From: a virus | IMG/VR virus record: IMGVR_UViG_3300042896_000116 | Span: 1-41,090 of that record | DNA length: 41,090 nt | Reading direction: 5' to 3' (one strand) | Shown: piece by piece, positions 22,660 to 41,090 of the stretch | Layout: every line of letters begins with the position of its first letter | How positions within the stretch are numbered: position 1 is the stretch's first letter | Position numbers and translations under genes: made by a program | The notes under the pieces: model-generated | The model's input: the letters and a program-made list of their open reading frames with translations, nothing else | What the model was told of the DNA's origin: nothing | Database searches by the model: none

Positions 22660-22850
22660 GCTTTTATTCCAGAGTAAGTATCGTATTCATCATTGATAAT
22701 TTCCAATTGAGTGTCATCATCGAGATCACTAAATGGAACAAAATGGTTTTCTTGACAGCAAGAGATTTTCCCGTCTTTGGGCTCTATGCAATAGCAGCAA
22801 TATTCGACATTTGCGTGCTCTTCTTTGAACTGTTGAATAAAATTCTTCAT
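22656..22850 (-). CDS. Small Cys-containing protein
   Basis: The product has 64 residues. It includes CCYC and CC (total five Cys) near the middle, in an EYCCYCIEPKDGKISCC pattern that could bind zinc, and an acidic DLDDDTQLEI tail. No known family is recognised. It lies between a 50-aa basic gene and the annealing protein. Confidence 0.55.
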   Translation of the reverse strand: MKNFIQQFKEEHANVEYCCYCIEPKDGKISCCQENHFVPFSDLDDDTQLEIINDEYDTYSGIKA

Positions 22851-22851
22851 A

Positions 22852-23004
22852 CTACTTCCGTTCTATATGCTTTGCTAATAACCAGCTATCACCAAGGGCT
22901 CTAACTGACTTGATCCATTGCCGTTGATTGTGGCGATTGATAGATCGAGGTACGTAGTCTACATTAAAAAGTTCACGTACATGAACCAACATTTTAATTT
23001 TCAT
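22852..23004 (-). CDS. Small basic protein, first gene of the reverse operon
   Basis: The product has 50 residues: MKIKMLVHVRELFNVDYVPR at the start, then a basic Arg/Gln/Trp stretch (SINRHNQRQWIKSVRALG) and a final helix. The ORF has an AGGAAG ribosome binding site before its ATG and ends one base before the next start. As first gene behind the divergent control region it could be an early regulator or host take-over protein, but that is a guess. Confidence 0.6.
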   Translation of the reverse strand: MKIKMLVHVRELFNVDYVPRSINRHNQRQWIKSVRALGDSWLLAKHIERK

Positions 23005-23114
23005 TTCTTTCTTCCTAGTTCGTTTAAGAAGACTCTACTGTACCTACTTTTTCAAATTTTTCTCTAGGGGTTTTCCCTGATTGTTTTTAAATAAATTCAT
23101 GTTAGGCTTGTGGA
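23005..23114. promoter_or_regulatory. Divergent early control region
   Basis: This 110-bp AT-rich gap separates the reverse operon from the forward early operon and must hold promoters for at least one of them. A small hairpin AGGG(GTTTT)CCCT is visible near 23066-23078, followed by T-rich sequence. TTGTTT (23081) and TAGGCT (23103) are a weak promoter pair for the forward side. No clear -35/-10 pair is visible for the reverse side, so a phage-specific activator is possible. Confidence 0.5.
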
Positions 23115-23297
23115 ATGAACATTGAAGAACTTGAAACAACTTACGCATGGAACCTGGTAGTTGAGGCTACTGACTATGTTGAAACGTATGCAATAGAAGA
23201 GGACACTGAAGCTTCTGTTGTTGCCCTTCTAACTCGGGCTTTAGAGTTGGCTACTGGTAAAACAGTTTTTATAGAAAGCATGTTTAAAAATGAGTAA
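23115..23297 (+). CDS. Small acidic protein, first gene of the forward operon
   Basis: The product has 60 residues, strongly acidic, helical, and rich in Glu, Thr and Ala (NIEELETTYAWNLVVEA; EEDTEASVVALLTRALELA). Such acidic early proteins often inhibit host enzymes or DNA-binding proteins. No family is recognised. It overlaps the next gene by 8 bases. Confidence 0.55.
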   Translation: MNIEELETTYAWNLVVEATDYVETYAIEEDTEASVVALLTRALELATGKTVFIESMFKNE

Positions 23298-23406
23298 AGG
23301 TTCAGCACCAAGACCAATTGAAGTCCCTCGTGGCGAATATGAACGCCGATGGGATGAGATTTTTGGCAAGAAAAAGCCTGCTCCAGTAGAGCCTAAAAAG
23401 CTATAA
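23290..23406 (+). CDS. Conserved micro-protein with KGSxPRP...WDxIFGKK motif
   Basis: The ORF encodes 38 residues. The sequence MSKGSAPRPIEVPRGEYERR is followed by WDEIFGKKK. I remember tiny proteins with the pattern KGSxxRP...W..IFGKK from many phage early regions, with unknown function. The start lies inside the previous gene. The match to that family supports it as a real gene. Confidence 0.65.
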   Translation: MSKGSAPRPIEVPRGEYERRWDEIFGKKKPAPVEPKKL

Positions 23407-23447
23407 TTTTGCAAACCCGGCTAGGTTGGATTAATTACCCAATTGAA

Positions 23448-23486
23448 AAGTGAGCTTCCCCACTTGCCGGTGTTTTTCAGTGGAAG
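23448..23486 (+). promoter_or_regulatory. Competing hairpins in the leader of the replication initiator
   Basis: CACTT (23461-23465) can pair with AAGTG (23448-23452). CCACT (23460-23464) can instead pair with AGTGG (23479-23483), extended by CTT/AAG across a two-base bulge. The two hairpins are mutually exclusive and lie in a 95-bp gap just before the ribosome binding site of the initiator gene. This could be an attenuation-like control of replication. No known riboswitch consensus is seen. Confidence 0.35.
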
Positions 23487-23501
23487 ACAGCGGAAACAAT
23501 T

Positions 23502-24134
23502 ATGTCAATCATCAGAACGCCTCGTAAGGCGATTAATTTCACCATTCTGTCCAATTACGTCATTCAAGACAACCGTTTGTCTATGAAGGCTTTGGGTATG
23601 CTGGTTCGTTTGTTATCACGTCCTGACAATTGGTCGACCAATAGTGAAACATTGGCTCGTGAATTCGATTGTGGTCGAGAACAGATTAGAACAGTCTTGG
23701 GAGAATTGGCCGAATATGGATATATGAAGCTTAATAAAACTCAAAATGATAAAGGTCAATGGAGTTCATCATGGTCAGTATTTGATGAGCCGGAGTATAG
23801 CCAACCGGAGCCCGGAAACCCGTACTTCGGTTCACTGGGCCCTATAACAAGTACTGTAATACAAAGAACTAATACAAAGGCAGAAGAGCCAGTCGGTTTC
23901 ACCTCCTTCTGGCGTGTTTATCCAAATAAGAAAGCCAAGCCTGCGGCTTTAAAAGCGTTTAACAAAGCTAAAGTAACAGACATTGATCTAATCTTGAACC
24001 ACATTGACGTAATGACTAGATCTGAACAATGGCAAAACGTACAGTACATCCCTTTTCCAGCTACCTATTTAAACCAGCGTAGATGGGAAGATGACACCAT
24101 TGCACCAACTAACCAATTTGCAGGCTTTAAATGA
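23502..24134 (+). CDS. Replication initiator / helicase loader-like protein
   Basis: The product has 210 residues. Residues 1-95 form a winged-helix domain (SMKALGMLVRLLSRPDNWST; CGREQIRTVLGELAEYGYM). After a flexible linker, the C-terminus reads FWRVYPNKKAKPAALKAFNK (about 129-148) and YIPFPATYLNQRRWEDD (about 181-197), the typical ending of phage replication O-like and DnaD-like proteins. It probably binds the origin and loads the helicase encoded two genes downstream. CGGAAACAATT precedes the ATG. Confidence 0.75.
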   Translation: MSIIRTPRKAINFTILSNYVIQDNRLSMKALGMLVRLLSRPDNWSTNSETLAREFDCGREQIRTVLGELAEYGYMKLNKTQNDKGQWSSSWSVFDEPEYSQPEPGNPYFGSLGPITSTVIQRTNTKAEEPVGFTSFWRVYPNKKAKPAALKAFNKAKVTDIDLILNHIDVMTRSEQWQNVQYIPFPATYLNQRRWEDDTIAPTNQFAGFK

Positions 24135-24472
24135 GCCTACAACACCTTACAGCCATGCGTATTGGTGGCAAAGCACCTAGAACTATTTGGATTCTTGTTG
24201 GAAACATTCCAAAATGGATAGATGATGACCATCAATACATTCAAATATTGCCTTCTGATAAACCTCAACACATAGATTTTCGGTCTTTAGTGTCACTGAA
24301 TGTAGTAATTTTTGAGATTGGTCAACATGAATCTTTGCTTTTACAAACAATAAAAGCTATCGAAAGTGCAAAACCAAAGGAAATATCTATCGCTTGTAAT
24401 GATGGAATTGTGGGAATTAGTGAAAAACACGAAGATGTACTTAGAAAGGCTTTGAGATTGCTATGTCAATGA
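24131..24472 (+). CDS. Conserved-looking protein of unknown function between initiator and helicase
   Basis: The product has 113 residues, mixed alpha/beta, and includes MRIGGKAPRTIWILVGNIPKW near the start and strongly amphipathic helices at the end. Start and stop overlap both neighbours, so it belongs to the replication unit. Small proteins of this shape occur between phage replication genes as I remember them. A helicase-loader role is only a guess. Confidence 0.55.
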   Translation: MSLQHLTAMRIGGKAPRTIWILVGNIPKWIDDDHQYIQILPSDKPQHIDFRSLVSLNVVIFEIGQHESLLLQTIKAIESAKPKEISIACNDGIVGISEKHEDVLRKALRLLCQ

Positions 24473-25440
24473 TATTGGACGACACAATGGATTTTAGTTT
24501 TTACTTGCATGAAACTGACAATGCAACAAAGGTAAAGACTGCGACTGTATGGATGGATGACCTAATCCATGACTTGAGAAACCCTGATAAAACAAAGAAA
24601 ATCTTTATGCCGTGGGAGAAGACCATAAAGGATTTTGCTTTTCGCAAAGGTGAAGTGACACTTTGGGCTGGTCAAAATGGACACGGTAAGTCTTTGGTTA
24701 CATCACAAGTAGCTATGTCTTTGATGGGCCAAGATGAAAAGGTCTGTATTGCTTCTTTTGAAATGAAGCCTACAACGACCTTGAGTCGAATGGCGAGGAT
24801 GTATGCATGTACCAATCCTTTCTCTGAAGAATATCAGTCTAAAGAGGGAATAGAGGCATTGACAAGTCTTTATTCAGAGTTTGGAGAGTGGTCTGACAAT
24901 AAGTTGTGGCTTTATGACCAACAAGGCACTGTTAACCAAGATCAAATCATTTCTGTAGCCAGATATTGCGCAAAGAAGCTTGGGATCACTCATTTTTTCA
25001 TTGATAGTTTGATGAAATGCTCCAAAGGGGAAGATGACTATAACGGCCAAAAGAACTTTGTTGATGAATTGACAGCTCTTGCTCGTGATAACCAGATCCA
25101 CATTCATCTTATCCACCACATGAAAAAGCCTGCTGGTGGTGAATACCAGGTATGCGGGAAATACGATGCCAAAGGTTCTGGAGCCATTTCTGATCTCGTG
25201 GATAACTTCTTTGTTGTTCATAGAAATAAAGAAAAATCTGATGACATTGAGAACAAAGGAATGGCTTCACTGAAAAAGAATGAAGCTGATGCCTTCCTGA
25301 TATGCCGCAAACAACGTAATGGTGAAGGTGAGCCTAAGTTTTTACTGTGGTTTGATCGTGACAGTCAGCAATTTAAAGGCGCAGAACATGACAGACTCCA
25401 CTTTTATCCGAACTATCCTCACAGGGAAAGTGAATTTTGA
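24463..25440 (+). CDS. DnaB-like replicative helicase
   Basis: The protein has 325 residues, about the size of a lone RecA-type helicase core. Walker A is GQNGHGKS (residues 70-77), Walker B is FFIDSL (178-183), and motif H4 is HLIHHMKKP (215-223). KGSGAISDLVDNFF (237-250) is a typical hexameric-helicase segment. The DnaB N-terminal domain and any primase domain are absent, so it probably depends on host primase. The start overlaps the preceding gene. An alternative start lies two codons downstream. Confidence 0.85.
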   Translation: MSMILDDTMDFSFYLHETDNATKVKTATVWMDDLIHDLRNPDKTKKIFMPWEKTIKDFAFRKGEVTLWAGQNGHGKSLVTSQVAMSLMGQDEKVCIASFEMKPTTTLSRMARMYACTNPFSEEYQSKEGIEALTSLYSEFGEWSDNKLWLYDQQGTVNQDQIISVARYCAKKLGITHFFIDSLMKCSKGEDDYNGQKNFVDELTALARDNQIHIHLIHHMKKPAGGEYQVCGKYDAKGSGAISDLVDNFFVVHRNKEKSDDIENKGMASLKKNEADAFLICRKQRNGEGEPKFLLWFDRDSQQFKGAEHDRLHFYPNYPHRESEF

Positions 25441-29869: not shown

Positions 29870-29923
29870 AGCAGGTTATCCACGCTACCTATTTTAAAGC
29901 GTGGAGTAATGGAGATAAAACTC

Positions 29924-30499
29924 ATGAAAACTGAAATCACAAACTCGATCAAATTGCTTGCAACAAAGGCAGATGCGGCTACCAAAAGTGAAGAAGCCCT
30001 AGCGAAATTAGAGCAGGAGCAGGAACCCAATGTTGACAACAGTGTCGCCAAGCCACTTCAGCTAGTTATGAAATGGGCCGACATTTACGCAGCACAAACC
30101 GGTAATTATTACGCCGAAGCGGCACTTGATCCTTCAAAGTCCGCGCAAATGGACGACACAAGAGAAAAACTGGCTTTTGTGGTGGCTAAGATTTTGGGCG
30201 GCCGTGCGCCAATAGGTACACCCACCCCACCCGCAGCGCAACCAGAGCAAGAGATTTTTGGCTGGGTACGACCGGACAATCGAGTGGCCGAAGAATCTAA
30301 TACGAAAAATCAATTTAGCAGGGGTGCAAATAAGCCGCCAATCGGTACATGGATGCCTGTATTCATATCGCCGCCAAAATGCAAACCAGTGACAGATGGG
30401 CAGATAGATGAGGCTTCGATTGCTATGCGCAGATATTTACATATTTCGGAGGCTTCGATTGCTATGCGCAGATATTTACATATTTCGGGAGTACTGTGA
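29924..30499 (+). CDS. Mosaic accessory protein with duplicated C-terminal peptide
   Basis: The product has 191 residues. Helical N-terminus, then SEEALAKLEQEQEP (shared with the neighbouring EALAQ module), a middle domain with LQLVMKWADIYAAQTGNYYA, and ISPPKCKPVTDGQID near 155. The end consists of a 13-residue peptide, EASIAMRRYLHIS, present twice through a perfect 39-bp tandem duplication. ATG 29924 has GGAGATAAAACTC in front; an ATG at 29909 lies too close to its GGAG. Function unknown. Confidence 0.55.
   Translation: MKTEITNSIKLLATKADAATKSEEALAKLEQEQEPNVDNSVAKPLQLVMKWADIYAAQTGNYYAEAALDPSKSAQMDDTREKLAFVVAKILGGRAPIGTPTPPAAQPEQEIFGWVRPDNRVAEESNTKNQFSRGANKPPIGTWMPVFISPPKCKPVTDGQIDEASIAMRRYLHISEASIAMRRYLHISGVL
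30410..30487 (+). repeat. Perfect 39-bp in-frame tandem duplication
   Basis: Two identical copies lie at 30410-30448 and 30449-30487 with no differences. Each encodes EASIAMRRYLHIS and the reading frame continues to a stop four codons later. Identity without divergence indicates a recent event. Confidence 0.95.
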
Positions 30500-33366: not shown

Positions 33367-33389
33367 AATGGGGCCTTGATTGCCCCATT
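33367..33389 (+). terminator. Intrinsic terminator at the end of the early operon
   Basis: Perfect 8-bp stem AATGGGGC / GCCCCATT with a 7-base loop, followed by TTGTTTATTT. It lies 24 bases after the last early gene and also faces the two small reverse genes, so it may work in both directions. Confidence 0.75.
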
Positions 33390-33392
33390 TGT

Positions 33393-33488
33393 TTATTTAA
33401 TAAAACAATCAAAATAAGATAATATAAGCATTAATAATGGAGCTACTATTAATACAGTACCGATAATATTAAGTGCAATAATTTTCAT
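33393..33488 (-). CDS. Tiny one-helix membrane protein
   Basis: The ORF encodes 31 residues and is almost wholly hydrophobic (LNIIGTVLIVAPLLMLILSY). Its ATG overlaps the stop of the upstream reverse gene (ATGA), which supports coupled translation, and it ends directly before the terminator. Function unknown. Confidence 0.5.
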   Translation of the reverse strand: MKIIALNIIGTVLIVAPLLMLILSYFDCFIK

Positions 33489-33712
33489 TTGGCATATCCA
33501 TATAGTTCGATATTAATGCGACGGTCGATTGTCTCTTGACGTTGACGGCTGAGAATTAAACCTGCGCCTATATAGTCACCATCAGCAAGGCACTCAAGAA
33601 TATTGGCTTGCTGATCGTTGCATGCATCAATCAAATCCTGTTCGTCATATGCCTCAGTTTGGCGCTTGCTGCATTCAAAGAACTGGCTGGCTTCTACTGT
33701 AGTGTGTTTCAT
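33485..33712 (-). CDS. Small acidic protein of unknown function
   Basis: The product has 75 residues, helical, Asp/Glu/Gln-rich (YDEQDLIDACNDQQANILEC). AAGGCAGTAA precedes the ATG. It reads away from the non-coding region and may be expressed from a promoter overlapping the DnaA-box-like sites. No family is recognised. Confidence 0.55.
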   Translation of the reverse strand: MKHTTVEASQFFECSKRQTEAYDEQDLIDACNDQQANILECLADGDYIGAGLILSRQRQETIDRRINIELYGYAK

Positions 33713-33773
33713 TTACTGCCTTCGGTAAGAGCACCTGGAATCAAGTGCATGGCTAAATTCTAATCCATGTTTC

Positions 33774-33793
33774 TGTGGATAACTTGTGGATAG
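33774..33793 (-). other. Two DnaA-box-like sites in tandem
   Basis: TGTGGATAA (33774-33782) is the exact reverse complement of the E. coli DnaA box TTATCCACA. TGTGGATAG (33785-33793) differs from it by one base. AT-rich sequence follows. This fits DnaA-dependent initiation or DnaA-controlled transcription of the adjacent reverse gene. Confidence 0.55.
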
Positions 33794-34277
33794 TCAATTA
33801 TTTACTAGGTGTTTACCCTAATAATTGTCATCAAATTACGTGTTTGGCGACAATGCAAGACTAGGCTGCTTGAAAAAAGAAAAAATCAAGTCTCTTTATA
33901 TGATGCTTCATCGCACGCATAAACGAATGGCACAAGCGAAGCGCAAAGCATAGCGAATAAACGCGTTAAACCCAGCCATCCTGAGCATGTTTATTCTCTT
34001 ACGCACCAATAGTTAAGTACATCACATCGTCGCTCTAATAGCGTCCTGCTGCATATGCTTTTCACTGGAGAATCCGCGAGAAACCCTTTAGCCCTAGAGC
34101 ATGACTGTACTCTTCCGCACTAAGTAACTAATACATAGTTGAATAGCATTTCCACTACTGCCTGACTCCTGAACCCAGCTACTCAATAACTCAAAAGCTA
34201 TCGGTCTCCCTCCATCCCATAATTAATGACCCGTTGGTCAGTAACCATCCAGACCCCCCCAACTTAGCGTTTAGAAC

Positions 34278-34298
34278 CCCCTAGGTTAAGGGGTAACC
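34278..34298. other. Overlapping inverted repeats in the non-coding region
   Basis: CCCCT (34278-34282) pairs with AGGGG (34289-34293), and GGTTA (34284-34288) pairs with TAACC (34294-34298). The two stems interleave and exclude each other. A protein-binding site, for example for terminase, is more likely than a stable RNA fold. Confidence 0.45.
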
Positions 34299-34443
34299 CT
34301 GCGAATGGATGAGAAGAAGGGGGCCCACTCACCCATTCCCAATTTTTTCACAAAAACTTTTCCCCCCTCAACCAAACCACCAAGACCATTTCAGCCTATA
34401 AGTAATGCAAAACCTATTTTTATTTTTTTTACTCAAAAAGTTT

Positions 34444-34449
34444 TATACT
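34444..34449 (+). promoter_or_regulatory. -10 element of a likely tRNA/late promoter
   Basis: TATACT (five of six consensus bases) lies eight bases before the tRNA 5' end, the expected distance for a start just before the mature tRNA. The -35 region is T-rich without a clear TTGACA. It may drive the tRNA and the packaging genes. Confidence 0.45.
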
Positions 34450-34457
34450 TAGCACAT

Positions 34458-34533
34458 TCCTCAATAGCTCAGTTGGTAGAGCAAGTGACTGTTAATCACT
34501 AGGTCACACGTTCGAGCCGTGTTTGAGGAGCCA
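34458..34533 (+). tRNA. tRNA-Asn (anticodon GTT)
   Basis: A 76-base cloverleaf with encoded CCA. Acceptor stem TCCTCAA/TTGAGGA, D-stem GCTC/GAGC, anticodon stem AGTGA/TCACT with loop CTGTTAA, T-stem ACACG/CGTGT and loop TTCGAGC. All stems are perfect, so the gene looks functional. It stands between the non-coding region and the first late gene. Many proteins in this genome, especially fibres, are rich in Asn, which may explain its retention. Confidence 0.95.
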
Positions 34534-34549
34534 TTTATAAAGGATTGTT

Positions 34550-35059
34550 ATGGAATGGACATTGTCTCACCCGTTATACGATATTGATGATATTGTTGAA
34601 CTGGGTAAATTACTATTAATAGCAGAAGGTAATACTGTACTTAATACTGATCCACAAGTATTTAGACATCAATTAACTGTTTGTGCTACTAATCAAATAT
34701 TTGATAAACGCAGAGAGTTTTTAGCAGTATGTCGAGATATTAATAATAAGTTAATGGGATATTGTTGGTTTGATCGTGGTGGATATACTACATATTCAAC
34801 TGAAGAAATTAGTAATGCCAAGTTTCACCATGTTGATTTAACTCTTCCTGCTAAAACTCGGGTTAAGTTAATTAATGCAATGATTGATCAACATATACTA
34901 TGGGCTCACAGTAATGGGATACCTATTATTTGTTCGACAAGTATCCGTACAGAGCATGATGGGTTTATGAGAATGCACGCTAAACGTGGTTTTGTTGTTA
35001 ATGGGTCTTATGCTTGGATTCGTACTGAAGAAGGTTTAAAAGGAATTAAACATGTTTGA
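34550..35059 (+). CDS. GNAT-like acetyltransferase-type protein
   Basis: The product has 169 residues. The pattern FLAVCRDINNKLMGYCWFDR, followed by VDLTLPAKTRVKLINAMIDQ, and near the end FMRMHAKRGFVVNGSYAWIR, fits a GNAT fold, where the last segment is the usual FYxKxGF-like end. The pyrophosphate-binding Q/RxxGxG/A loop is not obvious, so it may be a non-catalytic relative. Similar proteins occur near terminase genes of podoviruses. AAAGGATTGTT precedes the ATG. Confidence 0.55.
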   Translation: MEWTLSHPLYDIDDIVELGKLLLIAEGNTVLNTDPQVFRHQLTVCATNQIFDKRREFLAVCRDINNKLMGYCWFDRGGYTTYSTEEISNAKFHHVDLTLPAKTRVKLINAMIDQHILWAHSNGIPIICSTSIRTEHDGFMRMHAKRGFVVNGSYAWIRTEEGLKGIKHV

Positions 35060-35531
35060 TAAACCTATTCGTCCAGAAGGTTCCATAGTATCTAGTCCTG
35101 CAAGACTGCAAGCTTCTAAAGACCAAAAGGCTCTTATCAGGGCTGAAAAGAAAGCCCTAGAACTAGCTACAGGACAAAGACATCCTAAACAAGGTGCTAA
35201 TCTGGCAACAGATAGAAATACGGCTGGTCGACCTAAATCCATTGTTAATCGGGTTACTGAATACGGTGCTTTGTTTAACAAGCTTAATGATGAACATGTC
35301 GCTAAAGGCTTTGCTCCACTCAAAACTGCTATGGAAGTTCTTATTGAAGCCATGCAGTCTGATGAACTTGATATTAAAGAAAAGTCCAAGATAGCTGAAA
35401 AACTTGCTACATTTGAGTCTTCTAGGGCGCCTATCATTTCCATTGAGCATGTGCAGAACATTACTAAAGAAGAGGATGTGTCTGCTGAAGACGCTTTAGA
35501 TGATTTCATGCAATCCTTACGAAAGATATAA
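35052..35531 (+). CDS. Putative terminase small subunit
   Basis: The product has 159 residues. The basic N-terminal half (KDQKALIRAEKKALELATG; NTAGRPKSIVNRVTEYGALF) could bind DNA, and the helical acidic C-terminal half (LDIKEKSKIAEKLATFES) could oligomerise and contact the large subunit. It sits 1.5 kb before the large subunit, with only small genes between. A GRPKSxVNR motif occurs in several small terminase-like proteins. Overlaps the previous gene. Identification is by context. Confidence 0.5.
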   Translation: MFDKPIRPEGSIVSSPARLQASKDQKALIRAEKKALELATGQRHPKQGANLATDRNTAGRPKSIVNRVTEYGALFNKLNDEHVAKGFAPLKTAMEVLIEAMQSDELDIKEKSKIAEKLATFESSRAPIISIEHVQNITKEEDVSAEDALDDFMQSLRKI

Positions 35532-36824: not shown

Positions 36825-37012
36825 TGGAAGACTATACTTTGGTTTTCCGATCAAAGTTGTCTGGACAGGCAGAAGTATGTGCGCGTAAAACTTTGGAAAT
36901 CCTTCAAAAAGATTTGCAAAACACACATGATCTTTCGCCTTCCGACATTTTTTATCTGGCCTCTGCTGCTCAATTGTTATTGACCATGCGCGATTACTAT
37001 GGCGAAAAGTGA
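36824..37012 (+). CDS. Small helical late protein
   Basis: The product has 62 residues, mostly helical (YTLVFRSKLSGQAEVCARKT; SDIFYLASAAQLLLTMRDYY). ATG 36824 overlaps the previous stop (TAATG); a GTG at 36815 is less likely. It also overlaps the terminase gene by 14 bases. Function unknown. Confidence 0.5.
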   Translation: MEDYTLVFRSKLSGQAEVCARKTLEILQKDLQNTHDLSPSDIFYLASAAQLLLTMRDYYGEK

Positions 37013-38591
37013 AGCTAGTGATTACATCCAACCTATTTACAAGGACCGTGCCCTAAAGCACCTTGTTCAACTTGCTGGTGGTAAGAAGTACATCAAAGAG
37101 ATGACTGCTGATCAGCTTAAAGCCATGAAAACGGCTAGGGATGTAATTGCCAAAGATATGCAGTTTAATACTTTGAAGTGGTTTAGGCCCTTCAAGTATC
37201 AGACTAACTTTTTTAAAACAGGTTCTACGCATACTCGTAGAGGGATGATTGCCGCCAATCGTACTGGTAAAACAATTGCCTCTACTTATGAGACTGCTTA
37301 TCATTTGACAGGACGTTATCCCAAAGATTGGACTGGTAAAGTCTGGACAACACCTATTATTGCTATGGCAAGTGGTGAATCATGGGAACAGGTTGCTAAA
37401 ACTCTTCAAAGTAAATTGTTAGGCTGCGATGATATTAAACAATCCTATAAACTTGGAACTGGTTCCATCCCACGCGAAGACATTGATCCAAAATCAATTA
37501 GAACGGACGGAGCGAACGTGTTGGCTATTGAGGTCTGGCACATTTCAGGAGGGAAGTCTAAGCTCTACTTCTCAAACTATACCCAACAAGTACGACATTT
37601 GCAGGGATTTGAACTTGACCTCGTAATTCTTGATGAACAACCGCCTGATGAAATCTTTTCCGAGCTTGTAGTTCGTACTGCTCAACGAAATGGTCAAGTT
37701 ATGTGTTCTTTCACGCCTCTTAAAGGTATGTCAGGTCTAGTACGCAAGTTTTGGGACAAGATCGAAGGTTATACACATATTCGTGTTGGCTGGAGCGATG
37801 TTCCATACAAAAATGAATGGGATGAAGAGTTTTTCTCTCAAAAAGAACGTGACCAATTGTCTCGAGATTTTATGCCTTGGGAAAGAGAATGTCGAATGAA
37901 TGGAACTCCACTTGTTGGTAAAGGTGTTGTCTTTCCAATGTTGGAATGGCCTACTTACAAAACAATTGACTTGGATTTAATGCGTAATGAAAAACTAGAA
38001 CGCCTTATTTCCTTTGACTTGGGTATTCGTAATGATCCAACAGTCATTAGCTTTTTCTTTCGTGATCCAGTAGCTGAGATTATTTATTTACATAGGCAAG
38101 TAACTATTCCTCGTGGAGAAGTTCCTGACGAATATGTTCATTATCTGATGGACAGAGAATCTAAAGGTGTACCTATTGCTTTGCCCCATGATGCGGGACA
38201 AGCTGGTCGATATACTTTGACAGAACAATCTATTCGAGAAACATTTGAAGATAATTATGGTTTAAACTGTATCCCAGGCGCTATTTTGAATCCTGCTAAT
38301 GATCAAGGTAAGGTAACTAACTTTAAATCTTATGGAATCAATATAATGCGTGTAGGAATGGAACGTAAATCATTTATGATTAATGAATCATGCGTTTCAT
38401 TTTTGGATGAAGCTAGAAACTATGCCATTGATGAAGCAGGTAAGTTTTCTGATCCTGATGATCATATTGACTCTGCTCGAATTGGTATATTAGCTTTAAT
38501 TCAAGGTCATGGTGAATCATTGGTAAGTAGAGCTAATACTTTTGTCTATCGTAGGCCAGAAGCTATTGATGGTAAAGTACAACGAATTTAA
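36999..38591 (+). CDS. terL: Terminase large subunit
   Basis: The protein has 530 residues. ATPase: Walker A AANRTGKT (85-92), Walker B LDLVILDE (206-213), with a motif III-like CSFTPLKG (236-243). Nuclease: SFDLG starts at 338 (D340), followed by FFFRDP and later DAGQAG and DDHIDSARIGI acidic segments. It packages DNA into the prohead through the portal encoded 8 bases downstream and cuts it. Length is normal. The start overlaps the previous gene in another frame. Confidence 0.92.
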   Translation: MAKSEASDYIQPIYKDRALKHLVQLAGGKKYIKEMTADQLKAMKTARDVIAKDMQFNTLKWFRPFKYQTNFFKTGSTHTRRGMIAANRTGKTIASTYETAYHLTGRYPKDWTGKVWTTPIIAMASGESWEQVAKTLQSKLLGCDDIKQSYKLGTGSIPREDIDPKSIRTDGANVLAIEVWHISGGKSKLYFSNYTQQVRHLQGFELDLVILDEQPPDEIFSELVVRTAQRNGQVMCSFTPLKGMSGLVRKFWDKIEGYTHIRVGWSDVPYKNEWDEEFFSQKERDQLSRDFMPWERECRMNGTPLVGKGVVFPMLEWPTYKTIDLDLMRNEKLERLISFDLGIRNDPTVISFFFRDPVAEIIYLHRQVTIPRGEVPDEYVHYLMDRESKGVPIALPHDAGQAGRYTLTEQSIRETFEDNYGLNCIPGAILNPANDQGKVTNFKSYGINIMRVGMERKSFMINESCVSFLDEARNYAIDEAGKFSDPDDHIDSARIGILALIQGHGESLVSRANTFVYRRPEAIDGKVQRI

Positions 38592-38599
38592 GGCAAGAC

Positions 38600-40747
38600 A
38601 TGTTAGATAAACAAAATGTAATCATTGAGTATATTGAAGCTCCCCAAGGAAATAAGGGTGTTGTTTTCCAAGTAGCTCATGAAGTTTATCTAAAAATGGT
38701 GGATTACTTGCGATTGACGCAAGCTAAAAACACTTTTAATAGGCTTTCTGATTACCATTATCTAAATATCGCTGTCAGTAATTCTACTGAGCCAATTCGC
38801 GGTATTGATTACATTCATCCTGTTGTAACACCTGGTGTAGATTACGCTACAGCCATTATTACCAAATGTTTGATGCCAAATGGCAAGGTTAACTTTGAAT
38901 TTGAGCGTTTTAGTGAATCTGATACTGAGCAATCTAATCAGGCAACTGAAATGGTCAAGTACATGCTTAACAGTAAGAATGATTCTTACCAAATTATTCG
39001 TGATTGGGCACAAGATTCACTTTTGCACAAAAATGGCATTGTTATGGTGTCACCAGTGCGTGAACCCATTACTCAATACAAAGAAGTAGAAGGTACCAAA
39101 GACCAACTGCGTGTATTTGAAACTTTGGCTGGTGAAAAAGGCTTGACTGCTAAACGTCAAGAAATGACTAAGGTAGATGTCGATTTGCAAGGCGTTATGC
39201 AATCATCTCCTGACATGAATGATGCGCAAAAGATTCAAGAATCATTGTCAGCAAATACTGTTTACCGTGCCAAATATAAATTGACCGGTTATTCAACTAC
39301 TGTGCGTGTTAAACATGTTGCTCAACATTACTTTGTTTGCAACCCTACTATTTCTAACATTCAAGACCAAGATTTCGTGGGTTTTTATGATCCCATGACA
39401 ATACATGAATGCAAAGCTCAGTTCCCGTATGTAGATCTTGAGAAACTAGCTGAACATGCTGCTTATGGCCCTGCTGGAGCTTATCAAGCTGGCGCCTTGG
39501 AGAATGACCTTGCTTTGCACGCTCGGGACTCTACGCCTGTTCCTGGACAAGGTGTAGTTGCTTCTGCTGGTGCTGATCGTTATAGCCGAGTCATCATGTT
39601 GACAACAGCATGGATTCGTAAAGACGTTGATGGTGATGGTGAAGAGGAAATTGTTGAAGTTTGCTATTCTGGATCGTACGTTTTGTACATGAAAGAAGTA
39701 GATTTCATTCCTTTGGCGTCCATGTGTCCAAAACCAATTACAGGTAACTTTTTTGGTTATTCATTGGCTGAACGTTTGGTTCCAATGCAGGAATATGCAA
39801 CATCTATTGCTCGTGCAGAGATGTCATTTGCCATGCAATCGTCTACTCCACGGATTGGTGTCAATCCTGAGTTTATTGATGCTGAAGAAATTCAACGTGG
39901 CGTAAGTGCTATGTTTATTCTTGATCGCAAGTTTGATGCCAATAAGCACGTATTCCAATTCCAGCCAATGCAAGGAAATTTGGCTTATGTTGAGTCATCT
40001 ATGCAGCGTTTTGAAGCTGACAAGATGGCAATGATTGGTATGACAAGCCCTAATGACGTTATGAATCCTGAAGTCATGAAAGATGGCAACAGCGGATTTA
40101 AACTTCAATTGGCAATGGGGCCAAATCAGCTTATCCAAGATGAAATGGTCAAGAATTGCGCTATTGGATTGCGTGATGTCATCTACATTGTGTGGAAAAC
40201 ATTGGTTCAATACTCTGATGACTACAACATTCAGCAATTGGCTAATGTTTGTGCTCAAGGCAAACCATTTATGGATGCTAAATCAGTCGAAAACTTTGAA
40301 TTTATTGACCGTAGACTGATTAACATTGATTTGGCTCTTGGATTCTTGTCTGATGAGAATCGTTTGACTCGTCAACAGCTTATTTCGCAAGCTCAAGGTG
40401 CATTTTCTGCTGGAATGTTGCAATTAGATCCATCAGTACCTGGTTTATTTACTAAATTACGCCGTCCATTTGAAGATACTTTGCGAGTATTAGGAGTTAA
40501 GGATGTAGATTCTTATTTGCCTACTATGGATGAAGCAATGCAAATTGCACAAGCTAAAGCTAAACAACCACCTGGACCTGCTGAACAAGAGTTGTCTAGC
40601 AAGGTTGCACTGAATACTGCCAAGGTTGCAGATACTCAAGCAAATACTGCATTTACTGTCCGTAAAACTCAAGATATGGATACGGATGATATGTTTGAAG
40701 CAATTGCTGCAAAAAGAGATAAACTACGGGCAGTTGAAGTAGATTAA
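38600..40747 (+). CDS. Portal protein, P22-like size
   Basis: The product has 715 residues, near the 725 of P22 gp1. The stretch ITGNFFGYSLAERLVPMQEY, continuing ATSIARAEMSFAMQSSTPR (about 375-412), is the usual central segment of podovirus portals. A calcium-loop-like DGDGEEE lies near 337-343. The C-terminal end is an Ala/Gln/Lys-rich helix (AMQIAQAKAKQPPGPAEQEL) that could form a barrel. As the dodecameric ring at the vertex it docks the terminase and the adaptor. Followed 9 bases later by the small gene before the scaffold. Confidence 0.85.
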   Translation: MLDKQNVIIEYIEAPQGNKGVVFQVAHEVYLKMVDYLRLTQAKNTFNRLSDYHYLNIAVSNSTEPIRGIDYIHPVVTPGVDYATAIITKCLMPNGKVNFEFERFSESDTEQSNQATEMVKYMLNSKNDSYQIIRDWAQDSLLHKNGIVMVSPVREPITQYKEVEGTKDQLRVFETLAGEKGLTAKRQEMTKVDVDLQGVMQSSPDMNDAQKIQESLSANTVYRAKYKLTGYSTTVRVKHVAQHYFVCNPTISNIQDQDFVGFYDPMTIHECKAQFPYVDLEKLAEHAAYGPAGAYQAGALENDLALHARDSTPVPGQGVVASAGADRYSRVIMLTTAWIRKDVDGDGEEEIVEVCYSGSYVLYMKEVDFIPLASMCPKPITGNFFGYSLAERLVPMQEYATSIARAEMSFAMQSSTPRIGVNPEFIDAEEIQRGVSAMFILDRKFDANKHVFQFQPMQGNLAYVESSMQRFEADKMAMIGMTSPNDVMNPEVMKDGNSGFKLQLAMGPNQLIQDEMVKNCAIGLRDVIYIVWKTLVQYSDDYNIQQLANVCAQGKPFMDAKSVENFEFIDRRLINIDLALGFLSDENRLTRQQLISQAQGAFSAGMLQLDPSVPGLFTKLRRPFEDTLRVLGVKDVDSYLPTMDEAMQIAQAKAKQPPGPAEQELSSKVALNTAKVADTQANTAFTVRKTQDMDTDDMFEAIAAKRDKLRAVEVD

Positions 40748-40756
40748 GGATTAATA

Positions 40757-41074
40757 ATGAAAAGCTTGGTAATTAATATTAGGGAATATTTTAATAAACG
40801 AACAAAAATTAAAGATACATGGAAGGAAGCTGATGTAACACGAAGAACTCTAGTTATTGAGAATGGCGAAAAAGCCAGTCGCCTCATGTCGAATGAGGAC
40901 TTTGGATTAATGTTTAATCTGTACCGATTTAACATGCTGGAACGTCTTGAAGAAAGTAAAGATGATTCAGATCGTATTAGTAATGCACATTATGTAGCTG
41001 GAGTCCGAGACTTTATTGATTTCGTAGAGAAACAAGAATTTCTTGGAAAAGTTGCAAAAAAAGCTAACCCTTAA
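40757..41074 (+). CDS. Small protein between portal and scaffold
   Basis: The product has 105 residues, charged and helical (YFNKRTKIKDTWKEADVTRR; RFNMLERLEESKDDSDRISN). Genes of this size between portal and scaffold occur in several podoviruses; their role is unclear. Its last 56 codons recur at the left edge of the window, with three synonymous differences. AAGGATTAATA precedes the ATG. Confidence 0.65.
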   Translation: MKSLVINIREYFNKRTKIKDTWKEADVTRRTLVIENGEKASRLMSNEDFGLMFNLYRFNMLERLEESKDDSDRISNAHYVAGVRDFIDFVEKQEFLGKVAKKANP

Positions 41075-41090
41075 AGGAAAAATATGTCAG
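40903..41090. repeat. Terminal overlap, right copy (matches 1-188)
   Basis: Right-hand copy of the end repeat described at 1-188. It starts inside the 105-aa gene and runs through the scaffold start codon. Three third-position mismatches distinguish it from the left copy. Confidence 0.9.

Follow-up and report, generated by a model that had tools for sequence, protein, structure and literature searches.

We describe here a conserved, single-copy 75-nt element (34290–34363, plus strand) that lies just ahead of the late genes of an uncultured phage and that, judged from sequence comparison, is most likely the terminase recognition and cleavage (packaging-start) site of a family of freshwater podophage-like viruses, a reading that we hold to be probable. 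A sequence-only reading of this DNA had suggested that packaging starts here, close to the terminase genes, and the present analysis supports this: the word GGGGGCCC turns out to be the centre of a cis-element conserved throughout the family, which is why a packaging start is the best reading of the site. According to this model, the terminase would bind block A and/or block B of the element, the A-tract block C would bend or position the DNA, and the cut that initiates packaging would fall at or near the G6C3 centre.

Genomic setting of the non-coding gap

The window, that is, the whole stretch of DNA analysed, is a viral contig of 41,090 bases with an end overlap of 188 bases (98% identity), which gives a circular map; positions 1–188 and 40903–41090 are identical at 185 of 188 bases, with three mismatches, as in a circular map with strain variation. 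The phage has a circularly mapping genome of 41 kb and podophage-like gene content. Its early and late gene blocks are separated by 745 bases (33713–34457) without a credible gene, and the absence of coding noted in the earlier reading is thus confirmed, the flanks being a small conserved ORF on the minus strand (33485–33712) and a tRNA-Asn with anticodon GTT on the plus strand (34458–34533). A mechanical ORF of 65 amino acids (34305–34502) runs into this tRNA and was rejected as a credible gene. The early block is closed by a terminator-like hairpin (33367–33389, plus strand).

The late block, on the plus strand, opens with a conserved ORF (34550–35059) that resembles a GNAT acetyltransferase by eye and has no Pfam or PHROG match. 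It is followed by a small-terminase candidate, assigned by position (35052–35531), for which the AlphaFold model (pLDDT 70, pTM 0.31) gave no structural match and which shows no profile match to the LUZ24 TerS. The gene of the large terminase subunit, TerL (36999–38591), begins about 2.7 kb downstream of the gap and precedes that of an SU10-type portal protein (38600–40747), after which come the head and tail genes. Elsewhere, the genome carries an endolysin gene at about 20.4 kb, a minus-strand gene for a Sak annealing protein, and a perfect tandem duplication of 39 bases (30410–30488) inside the ORF 29909–30499. Among GenBank phages, the sole named relative found was MW202484.1 (Podoviridae sp. 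ctfne034, from a Manatee Spring metagenome), whose TerL is 81% identical and whose source presumably is the Manatee Springs survey PMC8388828, as matched by title.

A conserved single-copy element in front of the late genes

Relatives were gathered through the downstream protein (34550–35059) and TerL, and the stretch before the homologue of the former was inspected. Nearly every relative contains the word GGGGG(G)CCC, preceded by a G-run some 30 nt away, and the copies were aligned on this word to derive a consensus, which reads AGGGGGTAGGRCTGGAA, 13 variable bases, AAAAGGGGGGCCCACTCMCCCATTCCC, AAAWTTT, 4–5 bases and AAAACTTTT. The layout, GGGG(G)TA..CTGG-N13-AAGGGGGGCCCACTCMCCCATTCCC-AAAWTTT-N4-AAAACTTTT, comprises three blocks at near-constant spacing, all on the plus strand in the window: block A (34290–34305), GGGGTAACCCTGCGAA against the family consensus AGGGGGTAGGRCTGGAA; block B (34312–34340), a G-run followed by CCCACTCACCCATTCCC, with the consensus AAAAGGGGGGCCCACTCMCCCATTCCC; and block C (34341–34361), AATTTTTTCACAAAAACTTTT, an A-tract block with no -10 box after it. 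The poly-C tracts and the central word reported in the earlier reading are present, C7 at 34254–34260, C6 at 34362–34367 and GGGGGCCC at 34319–34326, and for the 22-mer around the latter zero matches are expected in shuffled sequence.

In a set of 80 non-redundant copies, each base inside the element carries about 1–1.5 bits of information (0.3 in the N13 spacer), compared with 0–0.2 bits outside it, from -300 to +150, and the element amounts to about 85 bits in total. As most of its right half lies outside the pattern used for collection, the conservation seen there does not merely reflect how the copies were chosen. A profile from whose construction the window and its three nearest kin had been left out gave exactly one significant match in the window (34290–34363, E = 4.3e-18) and matched the element in 63 of 63 regions gathered solely by homology of the neighboring protein, a set that includes the window itself and those three kin. 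Among 50 contigs that are near-complete or long, each in which the pattern finds the full element has it once, except for one contig whose two ends overlap. MW202484.1, of the same family, has it at 41349–41424 within the same gene order as the window, and its record annotates no packaging site or terminus. In a search for prophages and satellites, the core pattern had no exact match in 84,980 bacterial and archaeal genomes, and no TerL relative was found in bacterial genomes.

Some relatives carry further sequences around the element. In L068 and L076 its right half is repeated in tandem nearby, and L021 has an inverted GGGGCCCACTCACT about 80 nt upstream. A conserved but clade-specific stretch, GGTAAGCTACCTGCCTTCCCAAGGGCTGGATGATGGCCCCGTAATC...GGGTTTACCC...CCTGTGGATAATTC with a DnaA-box word, lies downstream of the element and ahead of the first late gene in L058, L061, L064, L069, L074, L079, L081, L131 and L162. 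A G-quadruplex was considered as a general feature and rejected, the window copy having only two G-runs of at least three bases.

In sufficiently long contigs, the order is constant and runs in one direction: element, GNAT-like ORF, small-terminase candidate, two ORFs, TerL and portal. The element therefore adjoins the terminase genes in a fixed orientation, occurs singly and is strongly conserved as DNA, all of which is as expected for a packaging site. The distance to TerL is 2.3–4.3 kb across relatives, and that to the first gene is variable, at about 58–1530 nt. Genes on the opposite strand have been inserted between the element and the late genes in four relatives, namely a metallophosphoesterase (L036 and L049) and HNH endonucleases (L052 and L004), and these insertions leave the element intact, which fits a packaging site rather than a promoter.

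The element as DNA rather than RNA

As the gap is conserved and non-coding, and as relatives have a covarying hairpin in a neighboring position, it might encode a structured non-coding RNA, as the earlier reading had allowed for part of it. This reading, however, is extremely improbable. The RNA fold of the whole gap is no better than that of shuffled sequence (z = 0.28), the consensus fold of the element over 51 copies has three pairs, none of them covarying, and a scan of the window and 16 relatives against Rfam returned only tRNAs at the gathering thresholds. Nor did the interleaved inverted repeats claimed earlier hold up, the gap containing none that reaches 12 nt, and single-strand DNA folding of the element core gave z = 0.26. 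In the absence of RNA structure and covariation, we read the element as DNA, and on its sequence it appears to act as a double strand and not as RNA.

The hairpin of the relatives, AACACGCATGRRGATTG-[variable loop]-CAGTCYYCAGCCGTGTTGG, is absent from the window and was found in 24 distinct copies between the element and the first late gene, for instance in L010 (5827–5910), L175 (MW202484; 41573–41720), L065 and L076 (two copies each), L204 and L222. Its cells are paired in 96% of cases, and 18 are changed on both sides, compared with 6.8 in shuffles. It occupies the position of the tRNA-Asn of the window and, in L010, directly follows the likely late promoter, at the 5' end of the late transcript. 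No Rfam match was obtained in the carriers scanned, and from its pattern of substitutions the hairpin is possibly a new leader RNA.

Replication

The gap had also been suggested to be a replication origin using host DnaA, and it is indeed non-coding and C-rich, with two DnaA-box words, one of them perfect and the other nearly so, 11 nt apart beside AT-rich sequence. Both words are present on the minus strand, within 33774–33793 (TTATCCACA at 33774–33782 and CTATCCACA at 33785–33793), but they do not rise above chance: exact copies of TTATNCACA number two in the window, where 2.8 would be expected, and copies with one mismatch number 52, where the expectation is 62. Neither are they conserved, since L002 and L003, the two nearest relatives covering the site, each with 88% identity in the next gene, have ATGTATAAC and TGTGCATAA in their place; the aligned stretch of the other close relative, L004, excluded the box positions. 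In addition, the cumulative GC skew, a check proposed in the earlier reading, has no inflection at the gap, and the genes of a lambda O-like initiator (23502–24134) and a DnaB-like helicase (24463–25440) lie about 10 kb away, at 23.5–25.4 kb. An origin in the gap is accordingly very improbable, and the idea that replication and packaging start from one place, which depends on it, finds no support. A second long stretch of low coding content (22850–23502) lies between divergent early blocks, just before the O-like initiator, and is a more likely place than the gap for the origin and the early promoters.

Late transcription

A more serious alternative, which we nevertheless consider rather unlikely, is that the element acts as a regulatory region of late transcription, with a phage or host activator on blocks A and B and block C serving as an UP-like A-tract. 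The element stands at the start of the late operon, which needs such a region, and block C recurs downstream: in the window, a second block-C-like motif, TTTTTTTACTCAAAAAGTTTT (34424–34444, plus strand), leads straight into TATACT (34444–34449), 8 nt before the tRNA-Asn. Most of the 40 well-scoring second copies in relatives are then followed by a -10-like box, with offsets peaking at 7–11 nt (23 counts, including 10 at 9 nt), the offset in the window being 0 nt. The AT motif and -10 box at 34424–34449 are therefore a likely late promoter, as far as can be told from sequence, and part of the element may serve transcription. For the element itself, however, no -10 box was found at a constant spacing behind it, the distance to the first gene is as variable as given above, the minus-strand phosphoesterase and HNH genes intervene in the four relatives mentioned, and there is a single full copy per genome.

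Both functions might be joined if one protein, or the RNA polymerase, were to bind the shared A/T block at the element and at the late promoter, thus coupling transcription to packaging and linking late transcription to the first terminase cut. The presence of block C at both places speaks for this possibility, as does the role of T7 RNA polymerase in recruiting the prohead and the terminase (cited in PMC4281155). The spacing between the two block-C copies is inconstant, however (43–731 nt), motifs as simple as A-tracts may arise on two separate occasions, and the candidate protein is only hypothetical, so that we regard such coupling as improbable. If true, the link would be informative beyond the family of the window, given that for phiEco32-type phages, which do not have their own RNA polymerase, the mechanism by which genome ends are made has been described as unknown (PMC4281155).

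Packaging and contig ends

Returning to the element as a candidate packaging site, the ends of the relatives' contigs cluster around it: 10 of 104 ends (52 contigs) fall within 400 nt of the element, where about two would be expected by a hand estimate, and some lie within 35 nt on either side. The five near-complete contigs tested are circles closed by the assembler (end overlaps of 99, 123 or 127 bases), and many of the ends near the element are therefore cut points and not termini. The clustering could stem from G-runs or from strain variation, and it lends the packaging-site reading weak support, given the assembler-closed circles and the difficulty of assembling G-runs. The exact contig ends were likewise rejected as proof of cohesive ends, the five tested contigs being assembler-closed.

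G049 (L170, L189 and L190) is a linear contig of 41,235 bases with an exact terminal overlap of 20 bases, CCGCGCCCCAGCGGGGAATA, located 188 nt upstream of the element; this overlap has no counterpart in relatives and differs from the assembler overlaps of 99, 123 and 127 bases. The end overlap of G016 resembles that of the window but is longer, at about 760 bases, and more diverged, at 79–85% identity; it stops 42 nt beyond the element.

Since assemblies hide the genome ends, the packaging start has seldom been located in uncultured phages; here, comparing at least 63 relatives from metagenomes yields a candidate, resolved to the base, as a motif of 85 bits. If our reading is correct, this motif marks the genome start in every member of the freshwater family and could help to spot satellites or transduced DNA making use of the same signal.

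Comparison with known phage termini

Lambda-type cos sites have a GC-rich centre between a recognition block and a bend-prone block and lie near the terminase genes. The element would resemble them in its way of working as judged by layout, with a GC-rich centre, flanking blocks and the terminase genes nearby. The two-fold symmetry of lambda-type nicking has no counterpart in the dyad of block B, whose half-sites match no better than permuted pairs (p ~0.32).

Another comparison is offered by phages with short direct terminal repeats. In phiEco32, the direct repeats of 193 bases, found here as identical ends, place the genome end 2.2 kb upstream of terL, in the same direction as in the window, and the portal of phiEco32 and SU10 (Kuravirus) belongs to the SU10-type family that they have in common with the window phage. 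Unlike the latter, these phages have genomes of 77 kb and no G/C-run core exactly at the ends.

In LUZ24, the direct terminal repeats are 184 bases long (182–186 bases among LUZ24 and other Bruynoghevirus termini, and 182 bases in the LUZ24 relative Delta; PMC8540360), and the genome end lies 1.9 kb upstream of terL. The LUZ24-type TerL is about 30–31% identical to that of the window over nearly its whole length. Phages of this type have a tRNA-Asn and a small terminase between the terminus and TerL, followed by the portal, an order similar to that of the window, and the LUZ24 relative vB_PaeP_C1-14_Or has tRNA-Asn, tRNA-Asp and tRNA-Pro between its end and the packaging genes. Moreover, the cut boundaries of LUZ24 are G-run/C-run junctions, GGGAT/ATTCCCC and GGGGG/GATATTCCCC (the slash marking the cut), which recall the element. 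The element profile has no match in LUZ24 or Lyrsu01, and homology with the LUZ24 terminus was thus not found; furthermore, LUZ24 has a DNA polymerase, whereas the window phage has the O-like initiator and the helicase instead.

TerL similarity being a poor predictor of end type (PMC8540360), the candidate ends may belong to any of three types: cohesive ends, headful (pac) ends, or short direct repeats like those of LUZ24 and phiEco32. All together, the equivalent ends of LUZ24 and phiEco32 indicate that the element occupies the place of the physical genome ends in these better-known phages, and, if it is indeed the packaging start, it would provide a defined target for DNA recognition in the LUZ24/phiEco32 group of terminases, for which packaging is poorly understood.
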